Of a stretch of 64,000 nt of DNA, positions 17,084 through 48,687 are shown piece by piece. How positions within the stretch are numbered: position 1 is the stretch's first letter; each line of letters starts with the position of its first letter. The position numbers and the translations under genes are program-made. The stretch covers positions 14,428,568-14,492,567 of the forward strand of contig CM020618.1 of the NCBI GenBank assembly GCA_009829735.1. Direction: 5' to 3'. The stretch comes from Pyropia yezoensis (lineage: Eukaryota; Rhodophyta; Bangiophyceae; Bangiales; Bangiaceae). A model generated the notes under the pieces. The model saw nothing but the letters and a program-made list of their open reading frames with translations. It searched no databases and had not been told where the DNA came from.

Positions 17084-17728
17084 TGTGGCGTTCTCAGCCC
17101 CTGGGACCGTTGGAACCCGGGAGACTTACTTGGGACCCGGCTGGCAGCGTTACGTGGAACCACGCGCTGGCCGAGGATCCCTGCATCGGTGGCCCGGGGC
17201 AGTGGCGACACGCCCGGTGCCCTGACTGGTCACCTGGAGCGGTGGACTTGCCGGGTTGGGGCATACTGACCTTCGGGTTATTTGTTTGATTTTTCGCATT
17301 TGTTTTCCTTGCGTGATTTCGTGTCTTTCCCCTTTTTCCCACTGGGTTTTTTTTGGGGATTGACATTTGTGTGTGGGGGGATTTCGCTTGCTTTTTGTGT
17401 GTTAGCCCGGTGAGCGGCCGGTGCCTTGCTGGCACTTGGCCCGCTGGGGGCGCCCTCTGGGGGCCTCGCTCAGGGCCCCTGGAGGGGCCAGGGGGGGGAG
17501 GTTCTTGAGGGGTGCTCCGGGGTTCTCCCCGGGGCCATCTTGTAAAATCAACAGTACTTTGGGTTCCTTCTCCCTCGGGCTTTTGTCCTGTTTTCCTTTG
17601 CCCCGTATCGTAGCGGGCGAGTGGATCAGCAAGGGCTCTTACCTGTTCCTTCCTGGGCTTCGGACTGTGGTCTCTGTGTGTGTGGTTGTGGTTTCTGGGT
17701 CCGGGAATCTGGGTCCCATTACGCTACA
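17084..17728 (+). repeat. Family B 5' LTR
   Basis: TGTGGCGTTC ... ACGCTACA, 645 bp. It includes a T-rich tract around 17,280-17,400 and GC hairpins GGCCCC-TGGA-GGGGCC and CCGGGG-TTCT-CCCCGG near 17,480-17,540. An artefactual run-on of family A pol reads into its first 140 bp. Confidence 0.93.
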
Positions 17729-17732
17729 TTTA

Positions 17733-17750
17733 TGGTGGAGCAGCAGGGGA
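17733..17750 (+). other. Primer-binding site, family B
   Basis: TGGTGGAGCAGCAGGGGA lies four bases after the LTR end. It is identical to the site in families A and C. Confidence 0.8.
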
Positions 17751-17869
17751 GGGCTTTACTCTTCTCCCGTATCGGGACAGCCCTCTTCTTTCTCTGTGGC
17801 GTTTGGTTCCTTGGTCCCCGTTTCTAGTAACGAGATCGTTTGGTTCAGGTCGAGTGCCGCACGGCCAAC

Positions 17870-19576
17870 ATGACGGACCCTGTCCCTTCGGACGGTCGTG
17901 GCCGTGGTGCGCCGTCTGACGTTTCGATGGTTACTCCCGCTGGCCGTGGCCGCGGCGGTCTCTCGGGTCCGTCGAACCGTGGTGAAGGCGGGCCGAGAGG
18001 GATTCCTCGTCGGGGGACAGCGCCCCCGGGTGGAATCCGGGTTACAATGGGTCAGGATTTACGTGGGAACGCGGGTTCCGAGCCAGGGACCCGAGTTCCA
18101 CCTTCGGCTACTGTTGCTGGGTCCCCGGACATTGTGTCCACACTGGAAACGTTTCGAGATGAGATTTTGGCTACTGTTTCCCAGGCCCTGAGCCAGAGTC
18201 CTGCTGGCCAGGGTGGGTCCCGTGATACCAGTCGGTCCGATCGTTCTCGTTCCCGCCGTCACCGGCGTCGTCATCATTCGAGTGGCTCCTCTTCCTCTTC
18301 TTCCACTGGTACCACATTTTTATCCGTCTTCGACGAGGAGGACCTGGAACCCATTCAGAACCCACGAACCGAGCCCCAGGTACTCAAGTGTTCCGACGAT
18401 CGTTTTGCTCGGGTCCTGGACTATCGTACGTATCGCCTACGGAACAAGAAGTCGACCTATGGGACGCGAGACGCACGTAAGATGGGACGGGTTGCTCGTA
18501 ACATGAAACACTCTTTTGCTGGGTACCCTCATTTCGCTGGGAAGGAGGCCCTCAAGGTGTTCACGTGGCTCCGCAAACTGGTTAAGGCATGTAACGATAA
18601 TGGGGCTTCCGAGGGCATGGCCCTGTACGCGATCCCTCATTTCCTGCCTGGGGACGCGGAACTGCGGTACACTCGGGCCTTTCCGGACTCCTCAAGCGCG
18701 TCAGGTGGCGCTTCGATCACGAGTTACCCTGAGGCTGTTAACTAGTTCCTTGAAGCGTACGCTGAACCCCATACGTTGGCACTGGCGCAGGACAAGTTCA
18801 GTCGGGCCGCTAAGGAACCAGATGAGGGTATCGAGGCCTTTGCGGTACGCTTACGGGGTCTGACGGAACTATGCGGTAACATCCACACCGAAGGTACCAT
18901 GAAACAACAGCTGATTCAAGGGCTCCCTGAGTACCTACGTACGGACGCATTTGTTTACAATATCCCTGAACGTACGAACCAGCAGCTGGTAGCGTTTACT
19001 GCGAGCAAGAACAAGGCGGCTACAGAGGTTATCAAGATGGCCCGAGCGTCCTCTGTGACCAAGGCTGGCCCCTCTGGAACCGTCCGCAGACCCACTGAAC
19101 CGAGGCCCAATCGTTCGATGGACTCGTCCCCGTTGATGGCTGTTAATCCTATGGGCCCCTCTTCGATCCTTAAGGGCCCCCTCGAGAAGGAACCTGAGAA
19201 GAAGGGGTCGAGTCAAGTGTTTGGGTTCAAGGGACCCACGCCCCAGTTCGTGGGAGTACGTACCATGGACAGTCGACGCCCGTACCGTTGTTACCTTTGT
19301 TGGGAACCGGGTCACATGGCCCATCAATGTTCCATGTTGTCTGAGGTCCAACGGAAAGCGGTTCTCCAGACCCGGGACTCGTTCCTTGCGGCCACTCGTG
19401 GACGGAGTCAGAGTACCGATGTAAAGCCGAACGCGGACCGCCAGTTCCATCGTCAGATCCGGGTTGCTATGGTTCAGGCCCTTTGTGAAGGGATAAACCT
19501 CTCGGATGACGAGGCAGACCAAGGGTACCAAGTGAACGACGGTTCCCAGGAGCCGGGACCCTCGGGAAAAGAGTAA
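17870..19576 (+). pseudogene. Family B gag with CCHC knuckle and one amber stop
   Basis: ATG at 17,870; TAA at 19,574-19,576; 568 codons plus stop. The N-terminus is Gly/Arg/Pro-rich, with a Ser/Arg-rich stretch near residues 115-150. A helical capsid-like region follows, aligning with family C gag (shared AR-MGR-NMKHSF / AMGRAKKNALHSF type block). Near residue 480 a zinc knuckle C-Y-L-C-W-E-P-G-H-M-A-H-Q-C binds nucleic acid. A TAG at 18,743-18,745 interrupts the frame where family C gag has Trp in an ANWLL context. Without suppression the capsid would be truncated. Confidence 0.88.
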
Positions 19577-19578
19577 CG

Positions 19579-22500
19579 GTGGGCGGATCGAAACGGTCCC
19601 CTCCCCATCGTCGGGATAGTACCTGCTCGTTTGCAACTGCGTTGGGGTTCTCCAAGATCTTTAAAGGCCCCGTTATACCTGTACGTTCTGAGTCTCCTAT
19701 TACTTTGAAAACCCCGTGTTCCTGTTTGCCCTCTCTGGCACGACGATCCAAGTCTGGGCTCCGACGTCGGATGGGGATGAAGAAGCCCTATGGGTTCAAG
19801 GGTACCTTGCTTGTACTGCGTAAGAGAAACTTTGCTTTAAATGCTTTGGTTCAATTGGACAAGGAGGAACCGAAGGACACTACGGCTATTCTGGACACTG
19901 GTGCAGGGCCAAGCGTGGTACGTGAGGATGTCCTCCCTGAAGGATGGCGACGACTGGCGTCAAGGGCCCCCAAGTCGACGCATGTGTGTAACGCCTCGGG
20001 TCAGTTGTTACGGGCCCGTGGGATCGTGGAACGATCGATGATTGTGAACGGGAAGCCGATGTAGTTCGAGTTCCTCGTGGTCAGGGCCCTCTCGGTACCA
20101 TTGATCCTCGGGAGGGACCTTCAGAAGGAACACGTTAAGGCGATATACCCTGGAACAGAGTCTGTGCTTTGGAACCTGGGTTTCCTGACCTACGCCAAGA
20201 GAACGTGGGACGGAAAGACCCAGAACGCTTTTCCTGTGAAGGGTAACCCCGTACGCCAAGATCCTTCCGCCCTATACCTCTCCAAGGGTGTAACTTTGGC
20301 ACCCCGATCCCTCCAAGCGGTCTACGTCAAGTGCGGAACGAATGGACGTTGTTTACTTTATGAACGACCGCACAAGATGTCAAAGAAAGGGCTCCGTCTG
20401 CATAACGCCCTGGTTAACGTACGCACCCGGCGGGACTTCCGGATCCACATCATGAACATCTCGAACCGGGCGGTCAACTTGCCCAAGAACTTCGCCGTAG
20501 GCCTCGCTATCCCGTACGACGGACCCGTGCTCGAGGTCCCCACTGGTCACTTGCCGGCCCCTAGTGAGGGGGCCGACCCTTTTGTTACGCTGGGAACAGA
20601 GCAAGGGAACACGTCGGGTCAAGCGTCGTCACCGGAGGGCGAGACCCCTGAGGGATCCGATGGAACCACGGTACCTGAGCCGGATACAAAAGGCAAGACG
20701 TCAAACGGAACCCCGGTCAAGATGCCCAAGGTGGCGTACGAGCTGATCCCGCCTGAACTTCACCAGGCTGTACGTGAACTTTTGGAATGCTACAAGGGTC
20801 TGTGGGACGGACAACTGGGACATATTGATGTAACACCGCACCGGATCACTTTGAAGGACGGGGCCAAGCCTATTCGTTCCCAACCGTACCGTACCGGGCT
20901 CCATCATCGGGACCTGATGAAGGAACAAGTGGAAAAGCAGACCAAGCTCGGGGTCATTGAACCGTCTCAGGCTGAGTGGTCGTTCCCGGTCGTCTTGGTC
21001 CCCAAGCCCGATGGTACCCCGCGGTTCTGTGTTGACTACCGCAGACTGAACGATGTGACGGTTAAGGACACGTACCCGTTACCGAGGATGGACGACTGTA
21101 TCGACTTTCTGGGAGAGGCAACCGTGCTTTCGATGTTGGACGCGAACTGTGGTTACTGGCAGATCCCTGTTGCTGCCGACGACCAGGATAAAACGACGTT
21201 CACGTGTCACGAAGGAACCTTCCGGTACATCAGGCTCCCCTTTGGTCTTACGAACGCTCCGGCTACGCTTCAACGGGCCATCGATATGATCCTGTCCGGG
21301 GTTAAGTGGAAGACGTGCCTCGTGTACCTTGACGACGTTATTGTTTTCTCTAAGAACCCTACGGAGCACATGGAACACCTGGAAGAGATCTTTGGGCTAC
21401 TCGCTAAGGCCGGTGTTTCCCTGAAGGCCAGCAAGTGCTTTTTGTTCCATGACGAGGTTGAGTACCTTGGCCACATCGTCGGCAAGGGCCAGCTCCGCGT
21501 GAACGAGAAGAACCTGGTCGGGCAACGGGAAGCCAAGACACCGAGAACCAAGAAGGACCTACGCAGTTTCCTGGGAATGTGTAACGTTTACCGTCGCTTT
21601 GATAGGGACTATGCTCAGGTGGCCCGCCCTCTGTTGGCTATGGCAAGTACCAAGGTACCCGACCCTCTGCCCCCTTTTACTCCGGCTCAGACGGACGCGT
21701 TCGAGGAACTTAAGTACCGTCTGACCCACACGCCGATCCTGGCGCTTCCGCGACGCTCGGGCTAGTTTATTGTGGATACCGACGCGAGCGCTGCCCAGAT
21801 TGGGTGCGTTTTGCTACAGGAACAAGAGGACGGGGCCTACAAGCCCGTGGGTTACTGGAGCAGAGTCCTGACACAAGCGGAACGGAACTATAGTACCACG
21901 GAACGCGAGTGCCTTGCTGTTGTCTGGGCTCTCTTTTTGTTACGACCGTACCTAGAGGCGACACGCTTCGTTGTACGTACGGATCACACCGCTTTGAAGT
22001 GGATGTTACACATGGACGGAGCCCATGGACGTTTGGCTCGCTGGCGACTCCGGTTAGCCGAGTACAATTATACCGTTGAGTCCCGTCCTGGTCAACACCA
22101 CCATGCTGCAGACTTTATGTCAAGGCTAGAAACTACGGGACACGACCGAGGACCTATACCTGAGGAGATACCTTCCCTGTTAACCATGGCCAACTTTGTT
22201 ACCGGATGGGTCCGTCCGAACTTCAAGACACACAAGAGGTACCCACCGTTGTCGGTTGACAGGATCCTCAAGGCTCAGGGGAATGATAAGCGTTGCAAGG
22301 AACTTCAGGAAGAGATGAACCGGAACGCTAACTCGCGGTACGGGGAAACACCTGAGGAGTTACTTGTACGACTGGCTCCTCTGGACCGAGCCGTTCAGAT
22401 TGTGGTACCCAAGGATTTACAGCAGGAGGTACTGACTTTGGAACATGAACCAGGCCACGCGGGACACCCAGGGATCAATAAGATGTATACCTCTATGAGA

Positions 22501-23826
22501 CGAACGTTCTACTGGGAAACTATGGTGGCCGACGTGCACGCTTTTGTTACGAACTGTACCGCTTGTTCCAAGGGCAAGGTTCAGGGAAGGCGACGTACCA
22601 ATCCGTTGAAGTTGTTCCCCGCCACGGATCCCTTTAAGGACGTATGCCTTGACCTGTTGGGACCCTTGCCCGAAACAGTGAACGGGAACAAGTACCTTTT
22701 GGATATCGTGGACAGGTTTACCAAGCTTACCAGAGTGGTACCCATCAGCAGTCAGGACGCGGAAGTGGTGGCCCCGGCCTTCTTGGATACATGGGTCGCT
22801 TCTTATGGGCCCCCGGAAACGTTACTGAACGACAACGGGCCCCAGCTGGCGTCCACGCACTTCCGTGGCGTCTGCAGTATGCTTGGGATCAAACACGTAA
22901 CGTCTACCACGTACCATCCGCAGACCCAGGGACAAGTGGAACGCTTTGACCGTACTATCGTGGCCCAGTTACGTACGTACATTGTGGACCATCAGGACCA
23001 GTGGGACGAGTTGGTTTCCGTGCTTACCGTGGCGTACAACACAAGGCCACAACAGAGTACCGGCGTGGCCCCGTTTGAGTTCCTTATCCCTGAACGCGTG
23101 CGTACCTTTGCACTGGACCGGCTCCCAGGGTCCCCGTATCCCAATGAGGTCAGTGGCAATGCACGCCAGGTACGCGAGATAAGACGGGCCCACCTCAGGA
23201 ACCTAGCCTTCACGGTACGCAAGAACCTTGTCCTGGCCCAGCGTCGGTACAAGAGGGGTTATGATAAGCGGGTTACGCCTGTGAACGAGACCCTTCGCGT
23301 GGGAGACTGGGTGTACGTGGATACCAACAACGACAGTCGGAAGAAACTGGACCAGAGGGTCAAGGGTCCCTATCGGATCGTGGACCGGGATGGGCACACG
23401 TTTACGGTACTGGTTGAAGGGATCCGTGACCGGGTCAGTAGTGACCATGTGGCCCGTGCACCCACACCCTCTGGCCAGACGAACTCCACGTCCATGTTAC
23501 ATGGTCCGCAAGAACCGGTTGTACCCCTGGACCACGAGGACTCTGGCACCCCTTTTGTTTGGAAACGGTTTTTGGGGCACGACAGGGACCAGGAAGGGAA
23601 CCTATGGCTCTTGGTACGCTGGTGGGGTTACGCCCAGTCCGAGGATACCTGGGAACCTTACCACAAGTTCGACAGGGCCAAGGTTATCCAGTACTGTGAA
23701 CGCGTTGGGACCGTACCTCCACTGCGGGAGGAGGAGGCCATCGTACTACTGGAACCGTTCAAGGCTATCTATGCTGTGTGGCCCTGGAACCTTGAACCGG
23801 GTTCAGACATGTGTCCCCGTTGCTAA
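19579..23826 (+). pseudogene. Family B pol: protease-RT-RNase H-integrase-chromodomain, two amber stops
   Basis: This is one frame of ~1,415 codons following gag in a different frame; the first ATG is at 19,771. Approximate residue positions: retropepsin LDTGAG (105); RT FCVDYRRLN (482) and YLDDVIVFS (582); RNase H DTDAS (733) with the TERECLAVVWA and RTDHTALKW elements; integrase H-H-C-C zinc finger (955-990); DDE core with NDNGPQ (1083) and GQVERF (1118); a chromodomain ending WWGYAQSEDTWEP (1325-1375). The chromodomain places it with chromoviruses, whose integration is guided by chromatin. TAG stops at 20,062 and 21,763 break an otherwise intact frame; no frameshift is seen. It ends with TAA. 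Confidence 0.93.
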
Positions 23827-24203
23827 CCCTGGGCCACGCACCCTTGACCTGGTCAGCCAGTTCCCCAAGGCCAAGTGCTGGTTGAGACACCCGAGTAGGT
23901 GGGCAGGTTGATGGTTCGACTCGGGACACCAAGGGCAACATTTGGTTCCTGCAAAGATTGTTTTCCTTCGAAAGGAGGGCTACTTGGAAATCTGTTTCTG
24001 GCTAACCTTGAATTGGCTCTTTCCCCCTTTTCCCCATTACTCTCACCTCCCATCCAGGGATTACAAGAAAAGGTGATTACTGGAAGGGAGCAGGACTACC
24101 AAGAGGATGACAAGAAGCAGTGGAAACTTTATGACTCTCCAAGCAACAAGACGTAGGGTCAACACATGGAGCACGCACACAGAACCCTCATACCTTCGCT
24201 AAC
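23827..24203. other. Spacer between convergent pol and antisense ORF, family B
   Basis: These 377 bp without a gene separate the two convergent stop codons. They contain A-rich stretches on one strand and a C+T tract near 24,020-24,055. Transcript ends for both directions would be expected here, but no clear polyadenylation signal is visible. Confidence 0.5.
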
Positions 24204-25949
24204 CTAGTACCTACGGAAACGACTGTCGGGACGAGAAGACTCTTCCTCGTCCATGTCGTCTCGACCACGGACACGAGAACCTTCCTGGGTACCCGTCCAG
24301 GCACGTCGCGCGGCCGCCTCGGCGTTACCCAACTCGGTACCAAGGTCCCCACGGATCCCGTTACGGTCAACCAGGTTCAGTAGCCCTCTGTAGTCTGGGT
24401 TACTGGAGCCCCCTTGAGCACGGGTCCACTCGGCCACACGGGCCCCATGGTTAACCGTCGCGTGAAGGGAAGCCGACAACAGGGGCCCGACATGAGCGTT
24501 CGCAAGGACGTCCGCGGAACCCCCAAAGAAACTGCGTAGCCCAAGAACCGCCGTGGTAGTCAGGTTTCCGTCCAGGTCCATAAGTTCCGCGTCGGGCACG
24601 TCCCCATGGTCCAGAAGGTTAGCCACGTACACGGTACGACCCCCGGGAGGGTTGGAACGATGACCAGCTGACCCCGATGACCGAGCGCCCGGAAACCCAG
24701 AAGGACCTGCGGGAACCACCTCGTCCGACTGATCAGCGTTCTCGTCCTGGGCCCCGAGGATCTCACGCCCTTCCAGTACGTCCGATGAGTACGGTAGGTC
24801 CAGTGGGGCCAGGTCCTCGTCTACCAGGGCCGCCCATACCCCGTCCCGACTCTCGAACCGAAGCCGAACGAAGGAACCGCGATCCTTGCGACGTTTCCCG
24901 GAAGCGAGGAGACGCGCACGAAGCCCCGCGACGGAAATCACTTGGTCACTAAGGGTCAGAAGGGCGTCCAGGTCCCGCAAGGCGGCCTCGTCCACGCCAC
25001 CGGGACCCTGACAGATGGTACGGGTACCGACGCGCTGGATCCACGTACGCAGGGGCCGAGAGAAGAGGCACAGATAACTTTCCCGACGGGCGAACTCAAG
25101 CAGGTACACTGCACAGTTGGTAGCCCATTCCGTCCGAAACACGTACCAAGCGAACGCGTCCGACGAACGAAGAAGTTCCGTGAAGTAACACTGGACCGCA
25201 GGAAGTTCCACAAGGGCCCCGTATGGTAGTTCCACGTTCTCGAACCAGTGCGGAACCCGAACGTAATGGAGCCCACGGGTAGTCGCGGAACAACTGGGGA
25301 ACTCTTGTTGATGCCACCCGACCAGGAACCGACTCTTGTCACGATGGTGCCGACTGAACCCCAGGCTAGGTAGGGTCACTTGGTACCCGGGACGGTTCAG
25401 GTATGGGGGAGACCCGATCAGGTAACAGGGTGAAGGTGCGGCAGGTAGGGGACATTGGAGGACTTCCTTGCGGACCGTCTTGAACCGTTCGACGTACCCG
25501 ACCTCGTCCGCGTGCCGTACAACCGTGATCGACAGGGAACGGTCCGCAAGGACAGGGATCAGAGCTTCCGGCATTACCGCCATCTGCTTACGAAACGAGT
25601 TACCCGGACAGCTCCCGTCCACGGCTCGAAGGATCCCATGGGCCCGGGTACCAGTCACCCAACCTCGTGCCTCCTCCCGACGCCACGCCGTAACCGTCTC
25701 GGATCCGAAATCCTCAGGAACCACGCCAACTATGGCCGCGTACGACTGGCCCGCCCCGGTTTCCTCTTGATCCATTGGGAGAACGTCTGGCCCAGTAGCG
25801 GGGCCACCTTGAGCATCGCGTACGCCTTGCCCAGCTGGTACCCCGGACCCAGGAGCGGGTCCACCTTGCCCAGCTCGGTCACCTTGACGCGCAGGGGCCC
25901 CAGCGCCCGCGCCAGCAGGCGAACCCGCCGCGGCGCTGCCGGTAATCAT
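24204..25949 (-). CDS. Antisense accessory ORF of family B (uncharacterised)
   Basis: An intact 581-codon minus-strand ORF lies between pol and the 3' LTR, opposite in direction to gag-pol. I start it at the first ATG (25,949); an upstream GTG extends the frame to 26,003. The N-terminus is Ala/Gly/Pro-rich. The centre (about residues 80-360) is well-ordered mixed sequence with several Trp and Tyr, including a SPPYLNRPG block, an EFARRESYLCLFSRP helix-strand block and AALRDLDALLTLSD. The C-terminus is charged, with DMDEEESSRPDSR near the end. Families A and C carry a related antisense ORF at the same place. I see no signal peptide, membrane segment, catalytic motif or known domain. It needs a promoter in or beside the 3' LTR. 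Function unknown. Confidence 0.8.
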   Translation of the reverse strand: MITGSAAAGSPAGAGAGAPARQGDRAGQGGPAPGSGVPAGQGVRDAQGGPATGPDVLPMDQEETGAGQSYAAIVGVVPEDFGSETVTAWRREEARGWVTGTRAHGILRAVDGSCPGNSFRKQMAVMPEALIPVLADRSLSITVVRHADEVGYVERFKTVRKEVLQCPLPAAPSPCYLIGSPPYLNRPGYQVTLPSLGFSRHHRDKSRFLVGWHQQEFPSCSATTRGLHYVRVPHWFENVELPYGALVELPAVQCYFTELLRSSDAFAWYVFRTEWATNCAVYLLEFARRESYLCLFSRPLRTWIQRVGTRTICQGPGGVDEAALRDLDALLTLSDQVISVAGLRARLLASGKRRKDRGSFVRLRFESRDGVWAALVDEDLAPLDLPYSSDVLEGREILGAQDENADQSDEVVPAGPSGFPGARSSGSAGHRSNPPGGRTVYVANLLDHGDVPDAELMDLDGNLTTTAVLGLRSFFGGSADVLANAHVGPLLSASLHATVNHGARVAEWTRAQGGSSNPDYRGLLNLVDRNGIRGDLGTELGNAEAAARRAWTGTQEGSRVRGRDDMDEEESSRPDSRFRRY

Positions 25950-26518
25950 AGGGGCCAGGGTGGAGGGGAACGTGGTGGTACGGGTGATGGGGTACGTGGG
26001 CACGGAGACGGAGAAGGGGAACGAGGAAGCGGGGGAGAACGAGGTGACCTCGGGAAGCGCCGCGGGGACGATGGTACAATGGGACCCGGGTGCTGGGGAC
26101 GAGGGAACCCGTGAGGGTGCTCTTATCCACTGGCCCCCTGCGTTCCTAATGGTACCAGGGCTGCGCCCACGTTCCGCTGGCCCCCGCCTGTGCCCCTACA
26201 CCGCGTCACTCCCCCCTGGCGTACGGCGCACATGGGGAGGGCGACGGGGAGGAGGAATGCAGGTGGGCGGCCGGCGCGGGCTTCGCCACACCCCCTTTGG
26301 TTCCCATGCGCGTGGCCTGCACCTCTCCTGTACCCGCCCCTGGCCAGTCTGAACGGGTTCCCCTGGCACGAGACACTCGTCGGGGGGCCCCTGTTGACAG
26401 ACACTGGCCCCACAACCCGTTCGTTGTGGCCCTGTTGTAACCCTGTCAGACGTTCCCCAGTCGCTTTCCTCGGTTTCCTTGTTGGCCGGCGGGACGCTCG
26501 GCCCTAGTGAGGGGGCCA
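25950..26518. other. Family B untranslated region and polypurine tract
   Basis: No gene is supported. It would hold the antisense ORF leader and promoter. The last bases before the 3' LTR, GTGAGGGGGCCA, form the polypurine-like tract that would prime plus-strand DNA. Run-on frames such as 26196-26981 (minus) are mostly LTR sequence. Confidence 0.6.
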
Positions 26519-27163
26519 TGTGGCGTTCTGAGTCCCTGGGACCGTGGGAACCCGGGAGACTTACTTGGGACCCGGCTGGCAGCGTTACGTGGAGCCACGC
26601 GCTGGCCGAGGATCCCTGCATCGGTGGCCCGGGGCAGTGGCGACACGCCCGGTGCCCTGACTGGTCACCCGGAGCGGTGGACTTGCCGGGTTGGGGCATA
26701 CTGACCTTCGGGTTATTTGTTTGATTTTTCGCATTTGTTTTCCTTGCGTGATTTCGTGTCTTTCCCCTTTTTCCCACTGGGTTTTTTTTGGGGATTGACA
26801 TTTGTGTGTGGGGGGATTTCGCTTGCTTTTTGTGTGTTAGCCCGGTGAGCGGCCGGTGCCTTGCTGGCACTTGGCCCGCTGGGGGCGCCCTCTGGGGGCC
26901 TCGCTCAGGGCCCCTGGAGGGGCCAGGGGGGGGAGGTTCTTGAGGAGTGCTCCGGGGTTCTCCCCGGGGCCATCTTGTCAAATCAACAGTACTTTGGGTT
27001 CCTTCTCCCTCGGGCTTTTGTCCTGTTTTCCTTTGCCCGGTATCGTGGCGGGCGAGTGGATCAGCAAGGGCTCTTACCTGTTCCTTCCTAGGCTTCGGAC
27101 TGTGGTCTCTGTGTGTGTCGTTGTGGTTTCTGGGTCCGGGAATCTGGGTCCCATTACGCTACA
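26519..27163 (+). repeat. Family B 3' LTR
   Basis: 645 bp, the same ends and length as the 5' copy, with about 11 mismatches counted by eye. It is followed directly by the GGCAT duplication and the resumed family A integrase. Confidence 0.93.
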
Positions 27164-31319: not shown

Positions 31320-31682
31320 TGTAGCAATTTGGTTTGCCGTATTGTGACCCTAATGTTATGGGGGCTACTTCTAACCCTTGACTTTCAATTTGAGAGTCCG
31401 TACTGGTCACGGTATCTGTAAGCTACGTGCGACCAGAGGGACTTGCATCTTGGGGTGGAGGGTGGTTAGTAGTGTCTCCGAGGGTTTATAACGAGGGGGC
31501 CGGCGGCGAATCCACCGCCGGCCAAGGCAGAACAACAAGCCCCTCCCATTTGGGCTCCCATCTTGGTCCCGTGGCTTGCGCTCCAAGGACAGCAACCTTG
31601 GCCTCCCGGTGACGTTGGTGCCGATCCCCCCTGGCGAGTGTTCCCTGAGCGTGGACGTGCAGCGGATACCTAATGTGCTACA
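31320..31682 (+). repeat. Family A LTR (plus), 3' LTR of the nested copy
   Basis: 363 bp, starting TGTAGCAATTTGG and ending GTGCTACA, with the tract AAGGGGGGGATA directly upstream, so it is a 3' LTR in plus orientation. It is followed by GGCAC, which pairs with GTGCC outside the minus-oriented LTR at 40,733-41,087. Confidence 0.88.
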
Positions 31683-33707
31683 GGCACCCCGGCTGGGACG
31701 GCGGGTCAAGACGGTGCGGGTGCCCGCCCGGTTGGTGTGTCCGCGGCGGCGGGTAAGGGGTCTACCCCTGCTGCCCGCGTGGTGCCCACGTCGGGCCCGA
31801 GTGGCGGCGATGCTCTTTCCACGGTGCCGCGAACGATGGGTGGTCACGAAGTGTCTACCTCGATGGCAGTGGACTACGGGAGTTACTCCGGGCGGGCGCC
31901 CTCCCTTCTTCTTCCTCCTCGGCCCCGTGCTCCTCCGGTGCCGGCCCATCTGCCCGTGGGGCTTCCCCCGGCACCCCCTATTCTTCCTGGTCCTGCCCGG
32001 GTTGCCCCTTTGGGTGGCGGTGTCGCCTTGGCGGCGGGTCCACCCGCTATGTCGATGTCCGACTTGGTGGCTCGGGTCCGAGGCCTGACGGTGCAGGAGT
32101 CGATGGAGTCCGCTGGGCGGATGCGGGTGGACTTCCACCAGCCGCGTCTTCCTGGAGAGACCTCCCGGCGCGTCAAGGTGGACCCGAGTCGGGAGCGGGA
32201 GTTGGTGCGGCTGGTCAACCAGCCGAACGCGGTCCGGGTGGAGCATCATTGGATCGTGGGCCAGCCGGACGACCGGCATGCGCAGCTCTGGCGCACCCGG
32301 ATTGGGCGGGGTGAGGTCTAACTCGACTCTGCCTTCGGGATATGCGACTTGATTGCCCCCGCGTTGCCGCGGGAGGTTGACTACCTGGCTAGTGCTCGGG
32401 GGATTGCGGCGGCGGCGGAGCCGGTGGCGTTTGGGGAGACGGTGGGTGATACCGGCCGGTATCCCGGGTTTGAGTACTTCCCGGGGGTATCCCCGTACCT
32501 GACGTTGACGGCTCCGTACCCGCCTATGGCGGGGTTGAAGTCAGCGTCGAGCTGGCGACGCAAGCATGGTGTCATGGCGGATGCGTTCCGCACCGATATA
32601 ACGTGTGCGTTGCAGACCGGTAATGGTCGTGCGCCGGTTTACACTGCCGTGCGCCCGCCTCTGTGGCAGGAGGGGTGGGAACCCGCCCCTCCTTTCCGGT
32701 TTGTCACCGGCTCCTGTCTCCGATACTTCGGGAGTGTGTTGGCCTCCCGGCCGGTCCACCCGTTGCAGGGGACCTTCACCCTTGAGGTTACCCTCGGGCA
32801 GGCTTCCTCCTTCTTGCTGTCCGTCCGCCGGCAGGGGCGCCTGTTTCATCTTCCGACGGGTGTCCGTCGGCACATCAAGCAGCTGGGCGTGGACATGATA
32901 GCCGCCAAGACCGGGTTGGCCCGGGAGCTCGAGGCCCTGCTGGCTGTTCACGATGCCGTGAACTGGGCTGGGGTGTTGGCCCTTCCCCCGTACCGGGACC
33001 CGCAGGCTGGGGCTTCCCCCTTGCCTCGTCACTCGTTGCGTATCCGGCATACTCAGCCGGGTGAGCCCAATTGCCACGGGTGGGCGTCCACCGAGGCTGT
33101 TGCTGACCTGGGTATTCCCATGGTTATCCATGACCCTCTTCAGATCCTCGCCCCGTGGTTCGGTAACCCGATACCGGTGGCGGTTGGCCGTCGTCCCCGA
33201 GAGTGGGGCTCTGCGGGTGGGGAGCGTGATGTGTCCCGTCGTCGGGCGGAGCCCCGCCGGGTTTACGGTGGAGCCACATCAGTAGGGTCCTACCGGGCCT
33301 CGTATCAGGCGCCACCGGCTCGGGTGGTAGCCGTGTCGGCTCCTGTGGCTCCTCTGGCTGCCCCAGTGTCACCTTCCGCCCCTGCCATGCCTGGCGGGGG
33401 TCCCCGTCTATGGTATGAGGGCGTTGACGCCCTCATTGCCCGCGCAATGCGGGAGGGTCTCTCTGTTAGCTGGGGGGATATCCCTCCAGGTGCTGCGCTG
33501 GTTGGGTCCGCGCATTGCTTCGGTGGCGTGCTGGACCGCCTCCAGTCCGCTCTGGCGGACGTGGAGACTGGCCGCAGCACCCTCGTCCAGCTAAGCACCG
33601 AGGTAACTCGGGCGATTGACCGTCGTGAGATTGCCGACCGGTGGGGCACGGACGTGTACGCGCTTACGCGCGAGTGGCCTCCCTCGGGCAGTAGGTCTAC
33701 CCACTGA
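31683..33707 (+). pseudogene. Antisense accessory ORF of family A, main C-terminal part
   Basis: This plus-strand frame is antisense to the minus-oriented gag-pol beside it. It is open from the LTR edge to TGA at 33,705, with one TAA at 32,319-32,321. Its first codons, GGC ACC, continue in frame from the N-terminal part at 41,437-41,088 across the GGCAC duplication, so an insertion split one gene. It contains a VSPYLTLTAPYPP block, then FGSVLASRP, VRRQGRLFHLP and LARELEALLAVHDAVNW. These align with blocks in the family C antisense ORF and more weakly with family B. The end is a helical segment (QSALADVETGRSTLVQLSTE). No known domain, signal peptide or membrane segment is seen. Function unknown. 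Confidence 0.75.
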
Positions 33708-34158
33708 GGAGTGCTACTGTTTGTGAGGGAGAGGGACCCGGCGACCCTTATGGTGGCCGGGTAGTAGTGAGTATAAACTCATCCCCCGCTGGGGCGTTTG
33801 CATGGTACCGATGCCTGCCATTGGGGAGTACCCCGTCTGACTTAGCCGTGGTCTGCTTCGGTTCTTTCCCGCGCCCCCCAACCCATCCTGCTTGGTTAAT
33901 ACTCATGAAGGTCAACCTTCCTTGGTCCGTCACTTGCCCCATGGATGAAGGTTTACCATGGTGTAAGCCTCAGGTCACATTGAATTTATCGGAGTTAGTC
34001 ATCTCCTTCAAGTAAGCTTGTAAAAGTCAGTAGCTTACTTAGTTTGCCTAAGTCCGCTCCAACTTAGTGAACCTAAGTCTTGCCGAATCCATGTGACACC
34101 CTACTTAGTAGGTATAAGCCTCACCCCCCAACAGCCGAAGTCGGTGTCGGTTGGGTTG
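33708..34158. other. Spacer with stacked hairpins between convergent ORFs, family A
   Basis: These 451 bp lie between the stop of the antisense ORF and the stop of pol. The sequence is less GC-rich than its surroundings. At 34,010-34,112 four inverted repeats lie close together: AAGTAAGCT/AGCTTACTT (34010-34018 and 34032-34040), ACTTAG-5-CTAAGT twice (34037-34053 and 34062-34078) and CCTAC-TTA-GTAGG (34100-34112). The first two overlap and cannot form together. They could end or stabilise both convergent transcripts. Confidence 0.6.
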
Positions 34159-36945
34159 TTACAGTAGGCGTCGTCGCCTCATGTAAGGCATGAGAAGTTG
34201 GCGGGGTATATTCGCCGCCTGTTCCCAGGTGGGTGAGTCGTATCCGACCCACATCACTTTGACGTACCAGGGTCCTGGTAGGTCCGGGTCGGTGTGTCCG
34301 ACCACGCTCTCTACTTGGTATGGAATCCCATCCGGTCCCACCGGGTCATCTGACCGGTGGGTTGTAAGAGCTTCATGTAGCAACCCAGCCGGTACCGGCT
34401 GAGGCTCTTCCGGCTTCAGAGCAGGTGTCACATCATTGAGTTTGATGCGTTGTATCTCCGTATCAGAGTGCAGGATGACAGAGTGATCATCTCTGTGTAA
34501 GATCTGGTACGGTCCCTTGACCGGTTGCATAAGCTTGTTCCCTCGGGACTTCTGGTGTCTGATGTAGACCCAGTCACCTGTTACCAGGGTTGCGTTGCGT
34601 ACCCGTAGCCGGGCGTCAAAGTTCTTATTGTATCGAAGTTGTGTACGGTCAAGGGCACCCTTGAGCTTCGGTATTATCCACGATAGCTTGGCCAACCAAG
34701 CTAAGTGGATCCGTTCGGCCGGTCGGCCCTTCGGTATGTCATACCGAGTGCACCTGCCCGGTGGCAGCGTCAGGTTCCCGACGCCCATTGGCATGACCCA
34801 TTCCAGTGGTGCAATACTGGTACTTCGGTGGGGCCTGGTATTGTATGCCAGGGTCAAGACGGACAGAAGCCTGTCCCACGTCTTCGTGTGTTCCGCCACA
34901 TAGCATTGGAGCATCTTCACGATGGTGCGGTTGAACCGCTCCACCTGCCCGTTGGATTGCGGGTGGTAGTCGGATGCCCGACGGGGTTCGATGCCGAACA
35001 TGCCCAGGACCTTAGTGCAGAATGCTGACGTCAGGTTTGCTCCGTTATCGGAGAGGAGTTGCTTCATTACTCCGTAAGCACTGATCCAGTGGTCAACCAC
35101 TGCGTTCATGCTTGTGTAGGCCGTATCGTTCGGGATTGCTACTGCCCGTGACAGCTTAGTAAAGCGGTCCGACATGACCAGGATGTACCTGTTCCCTTCT
35201 TTCGTTACCGGGAGCGGCCCGAGTATGTCGTTAGCGACTTGTTCGTTGGGCCCATCCGGGGGGAACAGTTTCAAAGCGGATGCCCGCCTATGAAGACTCA
35301 TGCGATTCCGTGCACATGGGTGGCATCCCCGCACGTGGTCGATTACGTCGACGGCCATAGCTGGCTAGTAGAAGAACCTTCGCATTGCTGCGAACATGCG
35401 CGAACCCCCCGAGTGTCCGGCTGTGGGGTTGTCGTGTTCTCGTTCCATGACGGCCTGCCGTAAGGATACGGGAGCCACGACCTGATACCGTCCATCGGCG
35501 GGTGCCCGCCGATACATGAGTCCGTCCTCGTTCTCGGAGAAGATGCCGGCCGTGCCGGCCAGGAGGTTAGCACGATGGCGTTTACAGTCATCGTCATTGG
35601 CCTGTGCCTCGCGGAAGTCCGTGAGGGTCAATGGGCACGCAAGGTGTGCCATGGTATGGTCAACCATACCTTGGGTAGCATTACCCACCATGCACACCGG
35701 TACCACCGGGATGTCTTCGTCCACCTGTCGGGTATCCCCGCTTGGGGTATCGAGTCGCGACAGCGCGTCTCCCAGATGATGGGTAGAGCCGGCTTTATAT
35801 ATGGTCCGGTAGTCGTGCTCGGCCATCTTCAGCCTCCACCGGGCTAGCCGACCGTGGCTGTCGGAATCCTTGTCACCAAGGTTGAGGAGCCATCGTAGAG
35901 GTTCGTGGTCGGACCTTAGGATGAACCTGGAACCTTCCAGGTATGGCCGGAGCAGTTGCACTGCCCAAATGACTCCGAGGCACTCGCGCTCGGTGGCACT
36001 ATAGCTACGCTCAGCCGGGTTGAGTGTCCGGCCGAAGTACCCTACCGAATGTAGGTCCGGGATAGCATTATCGGTACCGATGATAGTCTCTCCCTGTAAC
36101 AGGGTGCATCCCACTTGGGTATCGCAGGCATCGACGTCGATGACGAAGGTCCCGCGTCTATGCGGGAACGCAAGCACGGGTGGGGCTAGCAGAGCTTGCT
36201 TGAGCAGCTCGAATGCCTCTCCCTCGCTGGGCGAGGGAGGTTGGAGTACCTTTGGCAAGGCGCTGCTCTTCAGGACCGTTAACGGTTTGGCTATACGAGC
36301 GAAGTCCTTGACGAACCGACGGTATACATTGCACATCCCCAGGAAGCTTTTCAGCTGTGTCTGGGTGGTCGGGTATTGCGCATCCCGGAGTGCCCGGGTA
36401 TTAGCTTCGAGCACTCCCAGTTTACCAGGTGTGATCTGGTGACCCAGATACTCGACGGTCTGCTGGAAGAAGGCGCACTTCTTGAGGCGCAGGGTTACCC
36501 CGGCGTTCCGCAAGAGGGTGAATACCTCATCGACGTGTTGCACATGGTCATCCATGTTACGTGAGAAGACGATGACGTCGTCCAAGTACACCAGGCAGTT
36601 ACGCCACTTGACTCCCGACAGTATAATGTCGATGGCCCGCTGGAATGTGGCGGGGGCGTTGGACAATCCGAAGGGCATCCTGAGGAACTCGTACACGCCA
36701 CTGTGACAGACGAACGCCGTCTTGGGGATATCGTCCTCCGCAACGGGGATCTGCCAATACCCGGCATTGCAGTCAATAGTGGTAAACACTGTGGCCTCCC
36801 CCAGCGAGTCGATGCACTCGTCCATCCTTGGTAAAGGGTATGAGTCCTTCTTGGTAACCAAGTCGAGGCGTCGATAATCGATGCAAAACCGAGGGGTCTG
36901 ATCTTTCTTCGGTACGATAACGACTGGGGCGCCCCACTCCGACAT
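34159..36945 (-). pseudogene. Family A pol: RT-RNase H-integrase-chromodomain with one amber stop
   Basis: The frame starts at the WGAPVVIVPKKD segment and runs to TAA/TAG near 34,159. It holds RT FCIDYRRLD and YLDD, RNase H (DVDAC, TERECLGV, SDHEPLRWL, DALSRL), an integrase H-H-C-C finger (HPCARNR), a DDE core (DILGPL, SDNGAN, GQVERF) and a chromodomain (YQVESVVGH ... VMWVGYDSPTWEQ). The sole break is TAG at 35365-35367, within FFY-stop-PAM. The host copy at 27.3 kb has TGG (Trp) at that codon, so this stop arose by a G-to-A change. Conserved upstream frame steps separate it from protease. Confidence 0.9.
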
Positions 36946-37633
36946 CGAAGGTCGGATTAGCTTCGCTCATCCTCTTCACTTCTCCATCAACGATCTCTCG
37001 TTGCATAGATCCCGCGCGATGCGGTTGCGACCGCGCTGGTCGAGCACCTGGTACCAGGTCTATACGGTGTTGGGTTGCCCCAATGGTACCCAGCGCCCCG
37101 CCGGTCCACATGACGTCATGCGTTCTTAGCATCCGTCGTACCCCTTCAGCTACCGAAAGGGGAAGGTGGTCGAGGTCAGCCTCGGCCAGTGCCTTCAAGG
37201 CTTCTTGGTCCTTTGGCGGCATGTCCGCCGGAGCTGCCGATAGGTTAGGCTTCCCGTCATCAGGTTGCTGCCGCTCGGTGGTATCGGCGACCGCCAGCAC
37301 CTCAAGTGGTTCCACTTGACCTTCCTTGTCAGGGGTAAGGATATCTCCTTCGTAGAGCTCGGCAATCCCGAGGATAGTTCCCTTCGGGAGGGTGACTGCC
37401 TTACGGCGATAGTTCGCCATCACTAGGAGGGACGACCCCCCCGCTGGGAGTTCTACGATACCGTTGGCCATGGTCAACCCATGGCGCTTGTAGGTTCGTA
37501 CGTTGGACTGGACTCTGCAGATGCCTGCGAGGTCACAGTTAACCGGGAGGAAGGTCTCCGATAGCGGCTCAAAGCGAGTCCGCTTGGCCAGCCGGAGTGT
37601 CTTCGGTTCTACGTTGGCGTATACCTCAGCCAC
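36946..37633 (-). pseudogene. Family A pol linker, minus copy
   Basis: It carries the same between-protease-and-RT segment and the same +1 steps on both sides as the plus copies. The unused frame extends to 36,773. Confidence 0.6.
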
Positions 37634-37634
37634 G

Positions 37635-38246
37635 CTAACGTGGCTTCCCTTGTAACGTCAGGTCCCTGACGATAGCTGTCTGTCCTCTCTTCGTCCCGTC
37701 GGCCTCTTGCAGCTCGACGGTCCTCCGGCCCGGCCGGATTGCATCCACGTGAACGTTGATGAAGGTGCACCCCAGTATGCAGGGCACCGATAGAGTCTCA
37801 CACACCAGGAAGTCAACTTCCGTAGTGAGCTCCCCGATAGTGACCCGCAGCGACATCGCTGCGGTCGTACGAATGAGACGACCATTCGCATCCTTGATCG
37901 TGGGTCCCCGAGCAACTCTGACTCGCGGGAGCCACTTGTCCGGGAGGGTATCCTTCCGGATCAGGTTAGGTCCAGCCCCTGTATCCAGTACGGGGTAATA
38001 CGACCGGGTCGACTGGGGGTCAACCCCCAGTGTGGCTGATACCTTGAAGTTATCCAAGGTGAACAGTACGTGGCCTACACCGATATCCGGTGTAGCTCGG
38101 GCATCCTGAACAGGGCCCTTATCTGGTTCCATGTGACGGGGCTCCCCGTCCTCTCCTCCCAACCTTGGAGGTTGGTCATCAATCCCCCGACGCCGTGTCG
38201 TCGGGGCCGGAAGGTGTACCCGGGGGTTGATGCGGCGTCGGCTCAA
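37635..38246 (-). CDS. Family A aspartic protease segment, minus copy
   Basis: LDTGAGPNLIRKD active site and an ILGCTF strand, ending at the same TAG as the other copies. The segment is in the frame preceding the linker by one base. The first ATG is about 38 codons in. Confidence 0.75.
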   Translation of the reverse strand: MSRRRINPRVHLPAPTTRRRGIDDQPPRLGGEDGEPRHMEPDKGPVQDARATPDIGVGHVLFTLDNFKVSATLGVDPQSTRSYYPVLDTGAGPNLIRKDTLPDKWLPRVRVARGPTIKDANGRLIRTTAAMSLRVTIGELTTEVDFLVCETLSVPCILGCTFINVHVDAIRPGRRTVELQEADGTKRGQTAIVRDLTLQGKPR

Positions 38247-38329
38247 CCGCGCTCTCCGTGGAGCTTTGCCCGCGGCAGTCCAGGGTGGCCTGCTAGGGTT
38301 ATCCCAGCGACCCCGTGTCGTCCTTCCTC

Positions 38330-38557
38330 TTACTCGTTTCCCGTGCTCGGCCGGGTACTGTCCCCTGGGACATCCGAGAGAGGGGGTGCCTTTTCGACTG
38401 CCAGCACTCCTCCTGGAGCTTGCTGCCTACCCGGTGCCGGGCCTCGGGCGGGATACCCACCCATCGATGCCTTGCGTTGCGCCGCTGCCCGTCGAGACTC
38501 CTCCGGGATGTGTGGGCATGCGGGCACCCAGTGTTGGGGGTCTCCGCACAACATACA
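38330..38557 (-). pseudogene. Gag zinc-knuckle tail, minus copy
   Basis: Intact C-M-L-C-x4-H-x4-C in frame with, but beyond, the gag TAA. It ends at the family-typical STGNE-TAA. Confidence 0.6.
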
Positions 38558-38602
38558 TCCGGACGTGCCGGCCGTCCCGGGCGTCCGCGTCGGGTTGGCT
38601 CC

Positions 38603-40507
38603 TTAGGTCCGGTTGCGTGCCTCGGGCGCCCGAGTGCCCGCCCCTTGGTAGGCCTTGGGTCCCGGTGCCAACCGGAACATGGACTCCCCCAATCGGTTGG
38701 GTCTACCCGCGATGTGCGGAGGTGCCTCCGTACGCACTGCCCATGTCGGGCGGGGTCGGTGAGAGTTACCCGTAACCGGGGCATACCCTGTAGTCCGCAC
38801 ATACGGGACGCGCCGTCCCGCTCCCTCGTTAACCTGGAACTGGGTCCCAGCCGGGGCGATGTACGCTACCGTACCATGCTCATCAATCACCGGCGTCGCC
38901 GATAGCAGCAGGTGGCCCTGTCGGTCGACTAGAGGTTCATCCTCACCCGTAGAGGTATGCTCGGTCGCCGTTAGTACTGGTGCAGCCTTACGTTCCCCCT
39001 TTTCTTGCCTCGACACCGGGGTAAGACTGAGCTTGCCTCCCTCGCTCTTGGGCTTCGGGGCCAAGGCGCATTCCGGGTGTAGCACCCGGTAGGCGTCCCC
39101 TAGGGACTTGCACATATGCATCAGTCGACTGAAGTTCGTCCGAGCCGTATTGGCTCCCCGTGTGGATATCCGCACATAGTTGGGTACTCCTGCGAACAGG
39201 ATGGCCCGTAGTTCCCCTTCACCGAGGAGCTTCCCCAGCTCGTAGTCGAGCTCTTGGATCCGGCGACCAAACATCTCTTCATCCTCCCACGACTGGGCGG
39301 TGGCAGTGCGAAGGGCCCGATAGTGGTCTTCGCACTTGTCCTCACTGAGATAGCTGCTAAGCAGCTCCTTCAGTATACCGCGGTAATCCATGGGGGTGGC
39401 TGCGACCCTCATTCCCGGCATCGGGGATGCCTGGCGGAGGATGCCTCCGACCCGTTCGTCAACAAAGAACGGGAGGATCTCCAGCGCCAGCCCCTCGTTG
39501 ACGAGGGCCTTGTCCGCGGCTGCCTTGAAGCTAGTCAAGAAGCCGATGACTGCCATCGGGCGTCCGTTCGGCCCCCCGAACATGGGGACTTCTTGCATAA
39601 GGGTCTGCATAGAGCGGATCGCTCGGTGCGAGGTCGTACGCATCGATTCCGATACGGTAGTGGATCGGTCCTCCAAACGATAACGTTCCGGAGTCAGTAC
39701 CGACCTGAAGACTTCGCTGACAATCTCCGTGTCCGCGTCCTGGATATCCAGTCGCTTGGCCAGTTGATGAGTGAACTCATCGGACTCCATCCGCTTCAGT
39801 AAGCTCGCAGTAACCTGCGCTGTCCTCGCTTGAACCAGTGACGCTGGAACTTCCGGCGTCGGCGCGTCGGGTACCCGAGTTGCATGGCTCCCTTCGCCGA
39901 TGGGGTACTGCGAGACGGTACCGCCTCCCCCCATCGCCGACTCTGTTCCGGCGTAAGTATCCGCCCGATCATGTCCCCGGAGCCCGCTCTGGGTGCTTCG
40001 AGCGTAGCGCTCCGTCTGGCTACGTTCCAACTCAGCCGACGAGTCGGATCCATAACCCGCCGTGTCCGGGGGTTGTCCAGGAGTAGCACCACCGGGGTTG
40101 ACCCTGGTGGACTCCGAAAGTAGTCCGGCCGGTTCGAACCGTACCGGTGTGGGAGGGACCCGACGGGGTACCGTCGTATGGCGTGCTGACATCAGCACAG
40201 CCATTGCGTCCTCCGTACGCTCTTGACGGGCGTCGAGCCCGGTGAACCGGGCCTTGATGCGAGCCAATGATGCCATCAGGGAGTCCCCTGGTGAAGGTGG
40301 CGGCGGCGTGAGGTCGGCAAAGGGCAGTTGCGGCGGTCCGCCGCCCCCGGCCGTCCGTGCCGTACCAAACGTCGATCCGGCACCTGAGAGCATCGGCGTC
40401 TCAATGTTGTCGATCGGGTTACCGATCCCGGTTCCCGGGTTCAGCTCCGGGGTCGGCGTCGACGCCGATCCGTCACCTTGAACGTTCCCTGTCTCTTGGG
40501 CAGACAT
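38603..40507 (-). CDS. Family A gag, minus copy
   Basis: 634 codons from the first ATG after the leader. Intact and nearly identical to the copy at 12,119-14,023; differences include Gly for Ser near residue 140 and a changed stretch near MFGGPNGRPMAV. The start is supported by identical position and sequence in both copies. Confidence 0.82.
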   Translation of the reverse strand: MSAQETGNVQGDGSASTPTPELNPGTGIGNPIDNIETPMLSGAGSTFGTARTAGGGGPPQLPFADLTPPPPSPGDSLMASLARIKARFTGLDARQERTEDAMAVLMSARHTTVPRRVPPTPVRFEPAGLLSESTRVNPGGATPGQPPDTAGYGSDSSAELERSQTERYARSTQSGLRGHDRADTYAGTESAMGGGGTVSQYPIGEGSHATRVPDAPTPEVPASLVQARTAQVTASLLKRMESDEFTHQLAKRLDIQDADTEIVSEVFRSVLTPERYRLEDRSTTVSESMRTTSHRAIRSMQTLMQEVPMFGGPNGRPMAVIGFLTSFKAAADKALVNEGLALEILPFFVDERVGGILRQASPMPGMRVAATPMDYRGILKELLSSYLSEDKCEDHYRALRTATAQSWEDEEMFGRRIQELDYELGKLLGEGELRAILFAGVPNYVRISTRGANTARTNFSRLMHMCKSLGDAYRVLHPECALAPKPKSEGGKLSLTPVSRQEKGERKAAPVLTATEHTSTGEDEPLVDRQGHLLLSATPVIDEHGTVAYIAPAGTQFQVNEGAGRRVPYVRTTGYAPVTGNSHRPRPTWAVRTEAPPHIAGRPNRLGESMFRLAPGPKAYQGAGTRAPEARNRT

Positions 40508-40713
40508 AGTCACAATCAGTCAACCGACGTAACAGTCACAACGAATAAGAGAGCGAGGGGTTAGTTGGGGGAGAGTAACCGTAGATCGCAGTCAAACGCA
40601 ACCACTTAAAACAATCAAACATATCGCAGAACCACGAGTACAAGAAAAGGACTGGATCCCTATCCGCGTGCCAGGGCCGAAGACGGCGACACCACAAGGG
40701 TGACGGAAACCCG

Positions 40714-40731
40714 TCCCCTGCTGCTCCACCA
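40714..40731 (-). other. Primer-binding site, minus family A copy
   Basis: The complement of TGGTGGAGCAGCAGGGGA, one base inside the LTR edge, as in the plus copy. Confidence 0.8.
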
Positions 40732-40732
40732 A

Positions 40733-41087
40733 TGTAGGAATCCGTCGCACGTCCACTCTCAGGGAACACTTACCAAGGGGGATCGGCACCAACGTCACCG
40801 GGAGCCCAAGGTTGCTGTCCTTGGAGCGCAAGCCACGGGACCAAGATGGGAGCCCAAATGGGAGGGGTTTGTTGTTCTGCCTTGCCCGGCGGTGGATTCA
40901 CCGCCGGCCCCCTCGTTATAAACCCTCGGAGACACTACTAACTACCCCTCACCCCAAGATGCAAGTCCCTCTGGTCACACGTAACTTATAGATACCGTGA
41001 CCAGTACGGACTCTCAAATTGAAAGTCAAGGGTTAGAAGTAGCCCCCGAATATTAGGGGTCACAATACGGCCGACCATATTGCTAGA
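40733..41087 (-). repeat. Family A LTR (minus), 5' LTR of the nested copy
   Basis: 355 bp. Compared with the 363-bp copies it lacks 8 bp in the CCTATTGTGCTACA end. The outer end reads TCTAGCA instead of TGTAGCA, a base change at the usually invariant G of the TG terminus. It keeps the TATA-like box and both hairpins. Confidence 0.88.
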
Positions 41088-41437
41088 GTGCCGCCACAAC
41101 CGTCCGACACGCCGGCGACGCCGTCTTGGGGTAGAACCGCGCCGGCACCGGCGACAGCAGCCATCGGGGCCGCCGGAGGAGTAGGGGTAGAGGCAGCCGC
41201 TACACGCGGTTGCCCGCCACCCGACGGAGCCGTCGTGCCGCTGCACACGGACGACAATCCGCCCGGCGTCCCTTCCGGGGCCACACGAACAGTCACCCGG
41301 TCGTCCTCGTCCTCCGACGAGCTCTCCAAGAAGCACTCGGCGGCGGTGTCAGAGACGGGAACGGCGTCCACCATCACCTCTTCCCCCTCCTCAAGCAGGA
41401 GGTCGTCCTCGCCCCCGGGTACCAGGGGGTCCGACAT
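41088..41437 (-). pseudogene. Antisense accessory ORF of family A, N-terminal part
   Basis: ATG at 41,437 opens an acidic N-terminus (GGEDDLLLEEGEE, SSSEDEDD) followed by a Pro/Ala/Gly-rich linker of ~60 residues. The frame is cut at 41,088 by the LTR, after GGC GGC AC. The continuation is the plus-strand frame at 31,683, which resumes in phase across the GGCAC duplication. The part belongs to the outer element: it is antisense to the outer gag-pol and lies next to its polypurine tract and 3' LTR. Confidence 0.75.
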
Positions 41438-42025
41438 GGTGAAACCGGGGTAGCAGGTGCTTCTCGTGCCAAAAAGCCGCAGCCTGCTCGACCCGGTACA
41501 AGGAACGCTCGCGCGGACGAGCCAGGGAGGCGCGGGCACCCGCGCTTATAACCACACAGCTAAGCACGAGCGATACGGCAGCGCGGGACGACCGGCGCCA
41601 GCCGAGCTACGAGGGCGCTCCACCCAGGCACGTGGATCGGGGCCACGCCCCCCTCACACGGGGTAACCAAGAGGGGTCCCCCCCAAGCGCCCCCACGCAA
41701 CGCGGGCAGCCCCCGCCACCCACTCAATCGTCTCACGAGAGGGGCCCCCCTACCACCAGACGCCTGGTGGCGGATCCGCTTGCACCATCCCTCGGAAAGG
41801 GGGGTCGTGAACAGAAGCCCGCATCGGGAATTCAACGGTCCGGAAAACGGATCGTGTGTGCACCACACAAAGGGGGGCACCCCCGTCAGACAACCTCGAA
41901 TAGGGGTGTCTGTCGCGACAGGGCGCAAAGCCCCACCCGACTGGTAAACGGTCACGCGACCCACTTCCATTCGGTATCCCGAATGCAACTCGACCCGAGG
42001 ACGGGCCGAATCTAAGGGGGGGATA
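41438..42025. other. Family A untranslated region and polypurine tract
   Basis: No gene is supported. It should hold the promoter and leader of the antisense ORF. It ends with AAGGGGGGGATA just before the LTR. Its last ~130 bp recur at 31,190-31,319. Confidence 0.6.
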
Positions 42026-48568: not shown

Positions 48569-48570
48569 TT

Positions 48571-48588
48571 TGGTGGAGCAGCAGGGGA
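48571..48588 (+). other. Primer-binding site, family C
   Basis: TGGTGGAGCAGCAGGGGA lies two bases after the LTR and is identical to families A and B. Confidence 0.8.
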
Positions 48589-48687
48589 CAGAGGTAAACT
48601 TTACCTCCGGGTGCACCCGGGTGTAGGGGGCCCTCTGTCTCAGAGGAACGGTGGACTTGGACCGTGTCACTCGGATCGTTAGCCAAC

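Follow-up and report, generated by a model that had tools for sequence, protein, structure and literature searches.

Extra open reading frames (ORFs) on the strand opposite gag-pol are known in plant Ty3/gypsy lineages (PMC11963269, PMC7264820), as the earlier note on this DNA correctly stated, so a gene of this kind is not in itself new. The antisense ORF of Retand elements (TRP28, PF04195) resembles the one described here in its location, its orientation, its many copies, and its spread over families and species (PMC11963269, PMC7264820). Retand elements are flowering-plant non-chromoviruses, and 97% of their clusters carry TRP28. In contrast, the algal elements have a chromodomain match at the C terminus of pol, which sets them apart from a lineage defined by a pol without a chromodomain, and PF04195 was found neither in 5 of their antisense proteins (E ≤ 1) nor in 17 family members (E ≤ 10). 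A whole-genome search for PF04195 at E ≤ 10 also gave 0 matches; among 14 control genomes, which included no positive plant control, 1 had a match and none had a match over the cut-off.

Other described systems share single aspects of this arrangement. The antisense protein of Grande is nuclear, and its own promoter drives its transcription (PMC11963269, PMC7264820). The brtn gene of Boty in Botrytis cinerea is a non-plant example that is likewise antisense and lies in the interval between pol and the 3' long terminal repeat (LTR) (PMC7264820); Zhao et al. 2011, cited in PMC8365987, has a title on this gene. Unlike the algal elements, Boty has a fungal host, and the likeness is one of layout. 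HBZ of HTLV-1 and related retroviral antisense genes yield nuclear proteins from antisense transcripts whose promoter lies in the 3' LTR (PMC11963269, PMC7264820), although HBZ is a gene of a human retrovirus and is likened here only in its way of working. Red algae are known to harbor chromoviruses in general (PMC3605345). Among the titles and abstract openings listed for red-algal or Pyropia retrotransposons and for chromovirus antisense ORFs, we found no description of a red-algal antisense retrotransposon gene, and the terms antisense, red alga, and Rhodophyta are absent from the main text of PMC6317226.

Three nested elements and their antisense frames

The window, by which we mean the whole stretch of 64,000 nucleotides that was analyzed (C1:14428568-14492567), comes from a 107.48-Mb assembly of 11 contigs, which was also the genome searched for further copies. 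Three related Ty3/gypsy families (A, B, and C) are nested in it, and reverse transcriptase (RT), RNase H, and integrase are present in all three pols. RT-region identity among the families is 49 to 59%, which fits a single ORF-bearing ancestor. For each family, a long antisense ORF had been claimed in the interval from pol to the 3' LTR, and the ORF coordinates and LTRs bear this out, with the A copy rearranged.

Element B (17084-27163) is inserted into an A-element pol and is flanked on each side by a GGCAT target repeat. Its 5' LTR (17084-17728, plus; 645 bp, TG..CA) and 3' LTR (26519-27163, plus) are 98.3% identical. The gag frames (17831-19576, plus) have an in-frame stop at 18743-18745 and a CCHC zinc knuckle under the Pfam cut-off, and pol (20065-23826, plus) has an in-frame stop at 21763-21765. 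The chromodomain at the pol C terminus scored over the cut-off when the last 120 aa were searched (5.8e-6) and just below it with a longer piece (4.3e-5). Family B thus carries the chromodomain at the integrase C terminus by which chromoviruses are recognized; the corresponding matches in C (1.7e-4, in copy L040) and A (0.015) were both under the cut-off. The antisense ORF of B (24204-25949, minus) is intact and encodes 581 aa inside a 663-aa stop-to-stop frame. It lies between the end of pol at 23826 and the 3' LTR, with its ATG 570 bp inside the LTR edge, and is supported by the ORF call, by copies in the genome, and by the ratio of nonsynonymous to synonymous substitutions (dN/dS).

Element C has the same layout, an opposite-strand frame in the interval between pol and the 3' LTR (aORF-3R). 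The aligned parts of its 5' LTR (48098-48568, plus) and 3' LTR (57005-57475, plus) are 95.3% identical, and between them lie a gag with a CCHC zinc knuckle (48985-50499, plus), a pol (50472-54086, plus), and the antisense frame (54726-56873, minus; likely start codon at 56669), which is broken by a stop at 56028-56030. A truncated C copy follows at 57476-59664. It holds a second antisense frame (58122-59081, minus), an open frame of 319 aa that joins C-protein residues 3-152 to residues 508-700 and so lacks about residues 153-507, the core; further C LTR sequence then occurs at 59194-59664. Just inside the 5' LTR, at the expected position of the primer-binding site, B (17729-17750) and C (48569-48590) are nearly identical: TGGTGGAGCAGCAGGGGA.

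In the A element (31320-42378), LTR sequences are found at 31320-31672 (plus), 42028-42378 (plus), and 40735-41085 (minus), and gag-pol is oriented as the last of these. Its gag (38603-40519, minus) resembles the C gag (63.2 bits, 0/300 shuffles), and its pol (34159-36966, minus) has an in-frame stop at 35365-35367. The central and C-terminal part of the antisense ORF lies at 31674-33707 (plus), with an in-frame stop at 32319-32321. The N-terminal part is set apart at 41087-41661, where a protein match places residues 71-201 of protein P0016 at 41473-41087 and residues 9-97 at 41661-41392, both on the minus strand. The earlier note was therefore right to assign a piece at 41,088-41,437 to the same protein, but this piece is on the strand opposite to the remainder. 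The window copy of the A ORF was apparently split by inversion, and the arrangement of the element suggests an inversion of 9.4 kb, either genuine or an assembly artefact.

The expectation that the frames are open with few stops held for B, which is intact, and less well for the window copies of A and C, each of which has one in-frame stop in the ORF. Longer frames occur elsewhere in the genome. Among the listed places, the A-type frame exceeds the 461 aa of the window copy in 87 of 92 (most commonly 825 aa, in 38 of 92), and the C-type frame is 724 aa in 73 of 97.

Relatedness and features of the antisense proteins

The three proteins had been proposed to be related, and this stood for A with C and for B with C by every comparison. 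BLASTP gave E values of 2e-8 for A-C and 5e-5 for B-C. Against the full C protein, B scored 57.0 bits and A scored 42.4 bits, scores reached in 0 of 1000 shuffles each, and three more B-C or A-C pairings likewise gave 0/1000. By itself, the A-B resemblance was not significant (BLASTP E value, 0.046; 34 of 1000 shuffles reached the score), and three more A-B pairings were reached by 31, 419, and 206 of 1000 shuffles. A profile-profile comparison, set beforehand as a refuting test, matched the families beyond chance: A-B at E 5.8e-5 (probability, 66%), A-C at 9.7e-6 (83%), and B-C at 6.1e-8 (95%). These profiles are shallow, and their matches span 168 to 236 columns in a common core. The case for homology of A and B thus depends on their profile match and on the link of each to C. 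Of the sequence blocks pointed out previously, PxYL can be aligned in all three proteins, and FGSV, RRxGxLxHLP, and LExLL align best between A and C.

The antisense protein consists of a conserved core of ~170 to 240 residues with variable ends. Net charge is +6 to +13 in A and full-length C and −10 to +1 in B. The protein had been described as having no visible domain, and our searches agree: none of 5 proteins matched Pfam at E ≤ 1, and 17 members at E ≤ 10 yielded one weak match, to DUF6214 (0.014), in one member. PHROGs (5 proteins) and NCBIfam (6 proteins) gave no match, and the Protein Data Bank (PDB) gave none in one search and one chance-level match (0.72) in another. None of these four collections returned a domain pointing to nucleic-acid binding. 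Viral contigs scanned with the B and A profiles held no relative. Searches of 5.8 billion proteins gave at least 4 matches with a joint profile, at least 1 with C, and 11 with A; the joint-profile and C searches each covered 8000 candidates, so that distant relatives may be missed. Six of the 11 A matches are named Pyropia vietnamensis (Bangiales), at 51 to 67% identity, which places A-type proteins in a second species.

Genome copies and selection on the antisense frame

The antisense ORF recurs in the genome in a constant position relative to integrase. In B, 53 of 75 listed ORF places have one of 106 listed integrase places tail to tail at a distance of no more than 4 kb, the median gap being 437 bp; 0/75 have integrase solely in another arrangement. 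In C, 35 of 97 listed ORF places lie tail to tail with one of 105 listed integrase places, at a gap of 646 to 652 bp, and another arrangement alone was seen in 0/97. Counted from integrase, 51 of the 106 listed B places and 35 of the 105 listed C places have a listed ORF place. When a stretch was picked solely by the position of an A integrase, it contained the A core in an open frame with 94% identity to the window protein. Two stretches picked by B-type integrase position and without a listed ORF had only the start of the ORF, and the core was absent at the expected spot.

Many of these copies are open. Among the matches listed, which are the best ones and therefore biased toward good copies, the searched stretch is free of stops in 41/75 places for B, 74/92 for A, and 94/97 for C (stop-free rows and frame lengths were tallied visually). 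Identity among the listed B copies goes down to 40%, and stop-free frames of 549 aa occur at 51 to 53% identity. Stop density in B is similar in the ORF (18 stops in 16922 codons) and in integrase (10 in 8962 codons); C has no stops in 12990 ORF codons and none in 7014 integrase codons.

We compared dN/dS across reading frames in 15 of 30 B loci (those with a full-length, stop-free frame) and in 30 C loci out of 97 places. In the ORF frame, dN/dS was 0.223 between B1 and B2 (8 × 7 copies), 0.430 within B1, 0.309 within B2, and 0.089 within C (30 copies), with the reservation that copies were chosen by similarity score, which can depress dN. The mirror frame on the sense strand gave 0.356, 0.465, 0.375, and 0.212, respectively. 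The ORF frame was thus below the mirror frame in 4/4 comparisons, by a narrow margin in B1, and the remaining four reading frames had dN/dS of >1. For integrase at the same loci (28/30 B loci and 29/30 C loci), dN/dS was 0.089 for B1 × B2, 0.260 for B1, 0.299 for B2, and 0.171 for C. Constraint on the ORF is therefore weaker than that on integrase in B1 × B2 and B1, similar in B2, and stronger in C. Third positions of antisense-frame codons account for 81% of the substitutions among the C copies. In B1 (12/13 loci), pN/pS was 0.82 to 1.29 upstream of the ATG and dropped to 0.40 to 0.53 downstream of it; the B2 values past the ATG (0.77 to 1.07) come from ungapped length-variant copies compared out of register. 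The antisense frame of B and C, the two families measured, is under purifying selection. With dN/dS well under 1 in these two families and the ORF adjoining integrase in many listed copies, the second outcome that the earlier note had named as refuting did not arise.

As for the presence of the ORF in most copies, many listed copies have it, and 16 listed B copies are without its core. We paired 106 listed matches to the ORF N terminus with the 106 listed integrase places and found 68 B ORF starts with integrase within 4 kb. Their distances were 1977 to 2469 bp in 48 cases, 1057 to 1096 bp in 16, 1669 to 1878 bp in 3, and 2718 bp in 1. In the group of 16, which includes the two integrase-picked B stretches (L070 and L071), the antisense ORF is shortened by ~1.1 kb. 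The simplest reading is one common deletion of ~1.1 kb in a B subfamily that later multiplied; two pairs among the 16 are separated by 4 to 8 kb and could represent duplications. An open pol of 1437 to 1438 aa is retained in four of the 16, together with a frame of 161 to 173 aa at the ORF start. The core is thus not strictly needed in cis, and the protein may act in trans, may be dispensable, or may restrain its element.

A putative accessory gene and its alternatives

The explanation that we favor as a whole, at a probability of roughly 0.6, is that a single lineage of chromodomain-bearing Ty3/gypsy retrotransposons in red algae has the ORF as a real accessory gene and that its protein most likely acts in trans, probably in the nucleus. 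The antisense gene codes for a protein that is homologous in the three families (least clearly between A and B), is selected in B and C, and keeps a fixed position; about this we have hardly any doubt. The gene was probably already in the common ancestor of A, B, and C and would have stayed tail to tail with pol, kept by the purifying selection on its protein seen in B and C. Judging from the layout, an antisense transcript very probably arises in or near the 3' LTR and would serve for expression, and in B1 constraint sets in at the ATG. The weakest step is the function. By analogy with what has been proposed for plant antisense ORFs, the protein could regulate or assist transposition in trans, perhaps as a nuclear regulator, a role that we put forward tentatively. 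The spread of B copies without the core agrees with action in trans, although the same 16 copies, four of them with open pol, also count against it, because the protein may be dispensable. The lack of a recognized nucleic-acid-binding domain and the fact that the B proteins are not basic count against a nuclear regulator. Also weighing against the explanation are the two integrase-picked B stretches with nothing but the ORF start and the weaker constraint on the ORF than on integrase in B1 × B2 and B1.

Core-deleted elements could also mean that the ORF product is a self-limiting factor, one that holds its own element family in check, so that lines losing it multiply. The 16 listed B copies with a common core deletion, four of them pol-open, and the in-frame core-deleted C copy in the window would suit such a factor. 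However, deleted elements are also expected under trans action or dispensability, and we consider this explanation unlikely.

The ORF might instead be a captured host gene or encode an env-like or particle protein, since both gene capture and env-like additional ORFs have been documented in other lineages (PMC7264820). Env-like ORFs are sense oriented and have transmembrane segments; here the ORF is antisense, and the highest 19-residue hydropathy among 8 proteins was 1.41, with no transmembrane-like segment, which argues against an env-like role. Nor did the antisense protein appear to derive from gag, an origin that we rejected because 11 of 12 gag comparisons were unremarkable (at least 16/300 shuffles). 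The nominally unusual one, C gag against P0006 (25.0 bits, 1/300 shuffles), consisted of short matches, the second of them 40 residues long (E value, 0.31), and was read as chance. Moreover, the matches listed by the protein searches were confined to relatives without a name, one EukProt contig, and proteins of Pyropia vietnamensis, which speaks against capture. We judge capture or a particle role to be rather improbable.

It has been discussed for plant elements that antisense transcription by itself is possibly regulatory (PMC7264820), and the antisense RNA could matter here through silencing or self-regulation by double-stranded RNA, with the protein incidental; selection on amino acids, including the excess of third-position substitutions in C, makes this very unlikely. 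Finally, although the regions have ~60 to 65% GC, long sense frames lie opposite the ORF, and mirror-frame dN/dS is also low, we dismiss the idea that GC-rich sequence produced the long frames as a by-product or that they mirror a sense coding region, because dN/dS is higher in the mirror frame than in the antisense frame in all comparisons and the similarity among families is seen in the antisense protein, the only frame compared.

A more far-reaching version of the accessory-gene explanation seems doubtful to us. It would make the ORF a new antisense gene family, evolved independently of TRP28 and no younger than the divergence of several red-algal chromovirus families, encoding a trans regulator with a new fold and accompanied by core-deleted satellites. 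If this version were true, these seaweed genomes would hold a helper-satellite system within one retrotransposon lineage. Antisense extra genes of LTR retrotransposons have been described from flowering plants and one fungus, and the elements described here widen both the hosts and the element types, to chromodomain-bearing ones. Intact, stop-bearing, and core-deleted copies coexist in a compact genome, which makes an antisense accessory function directly testable.

Separate from the antisense frames discussed above, the region at 60529-63420 has 72 to 75% GC and contains overlapping frames of 963 aa on the plus strand and of 876 and 865 aa on the minus strand. It is possibly a single host gene plus mirror frames.
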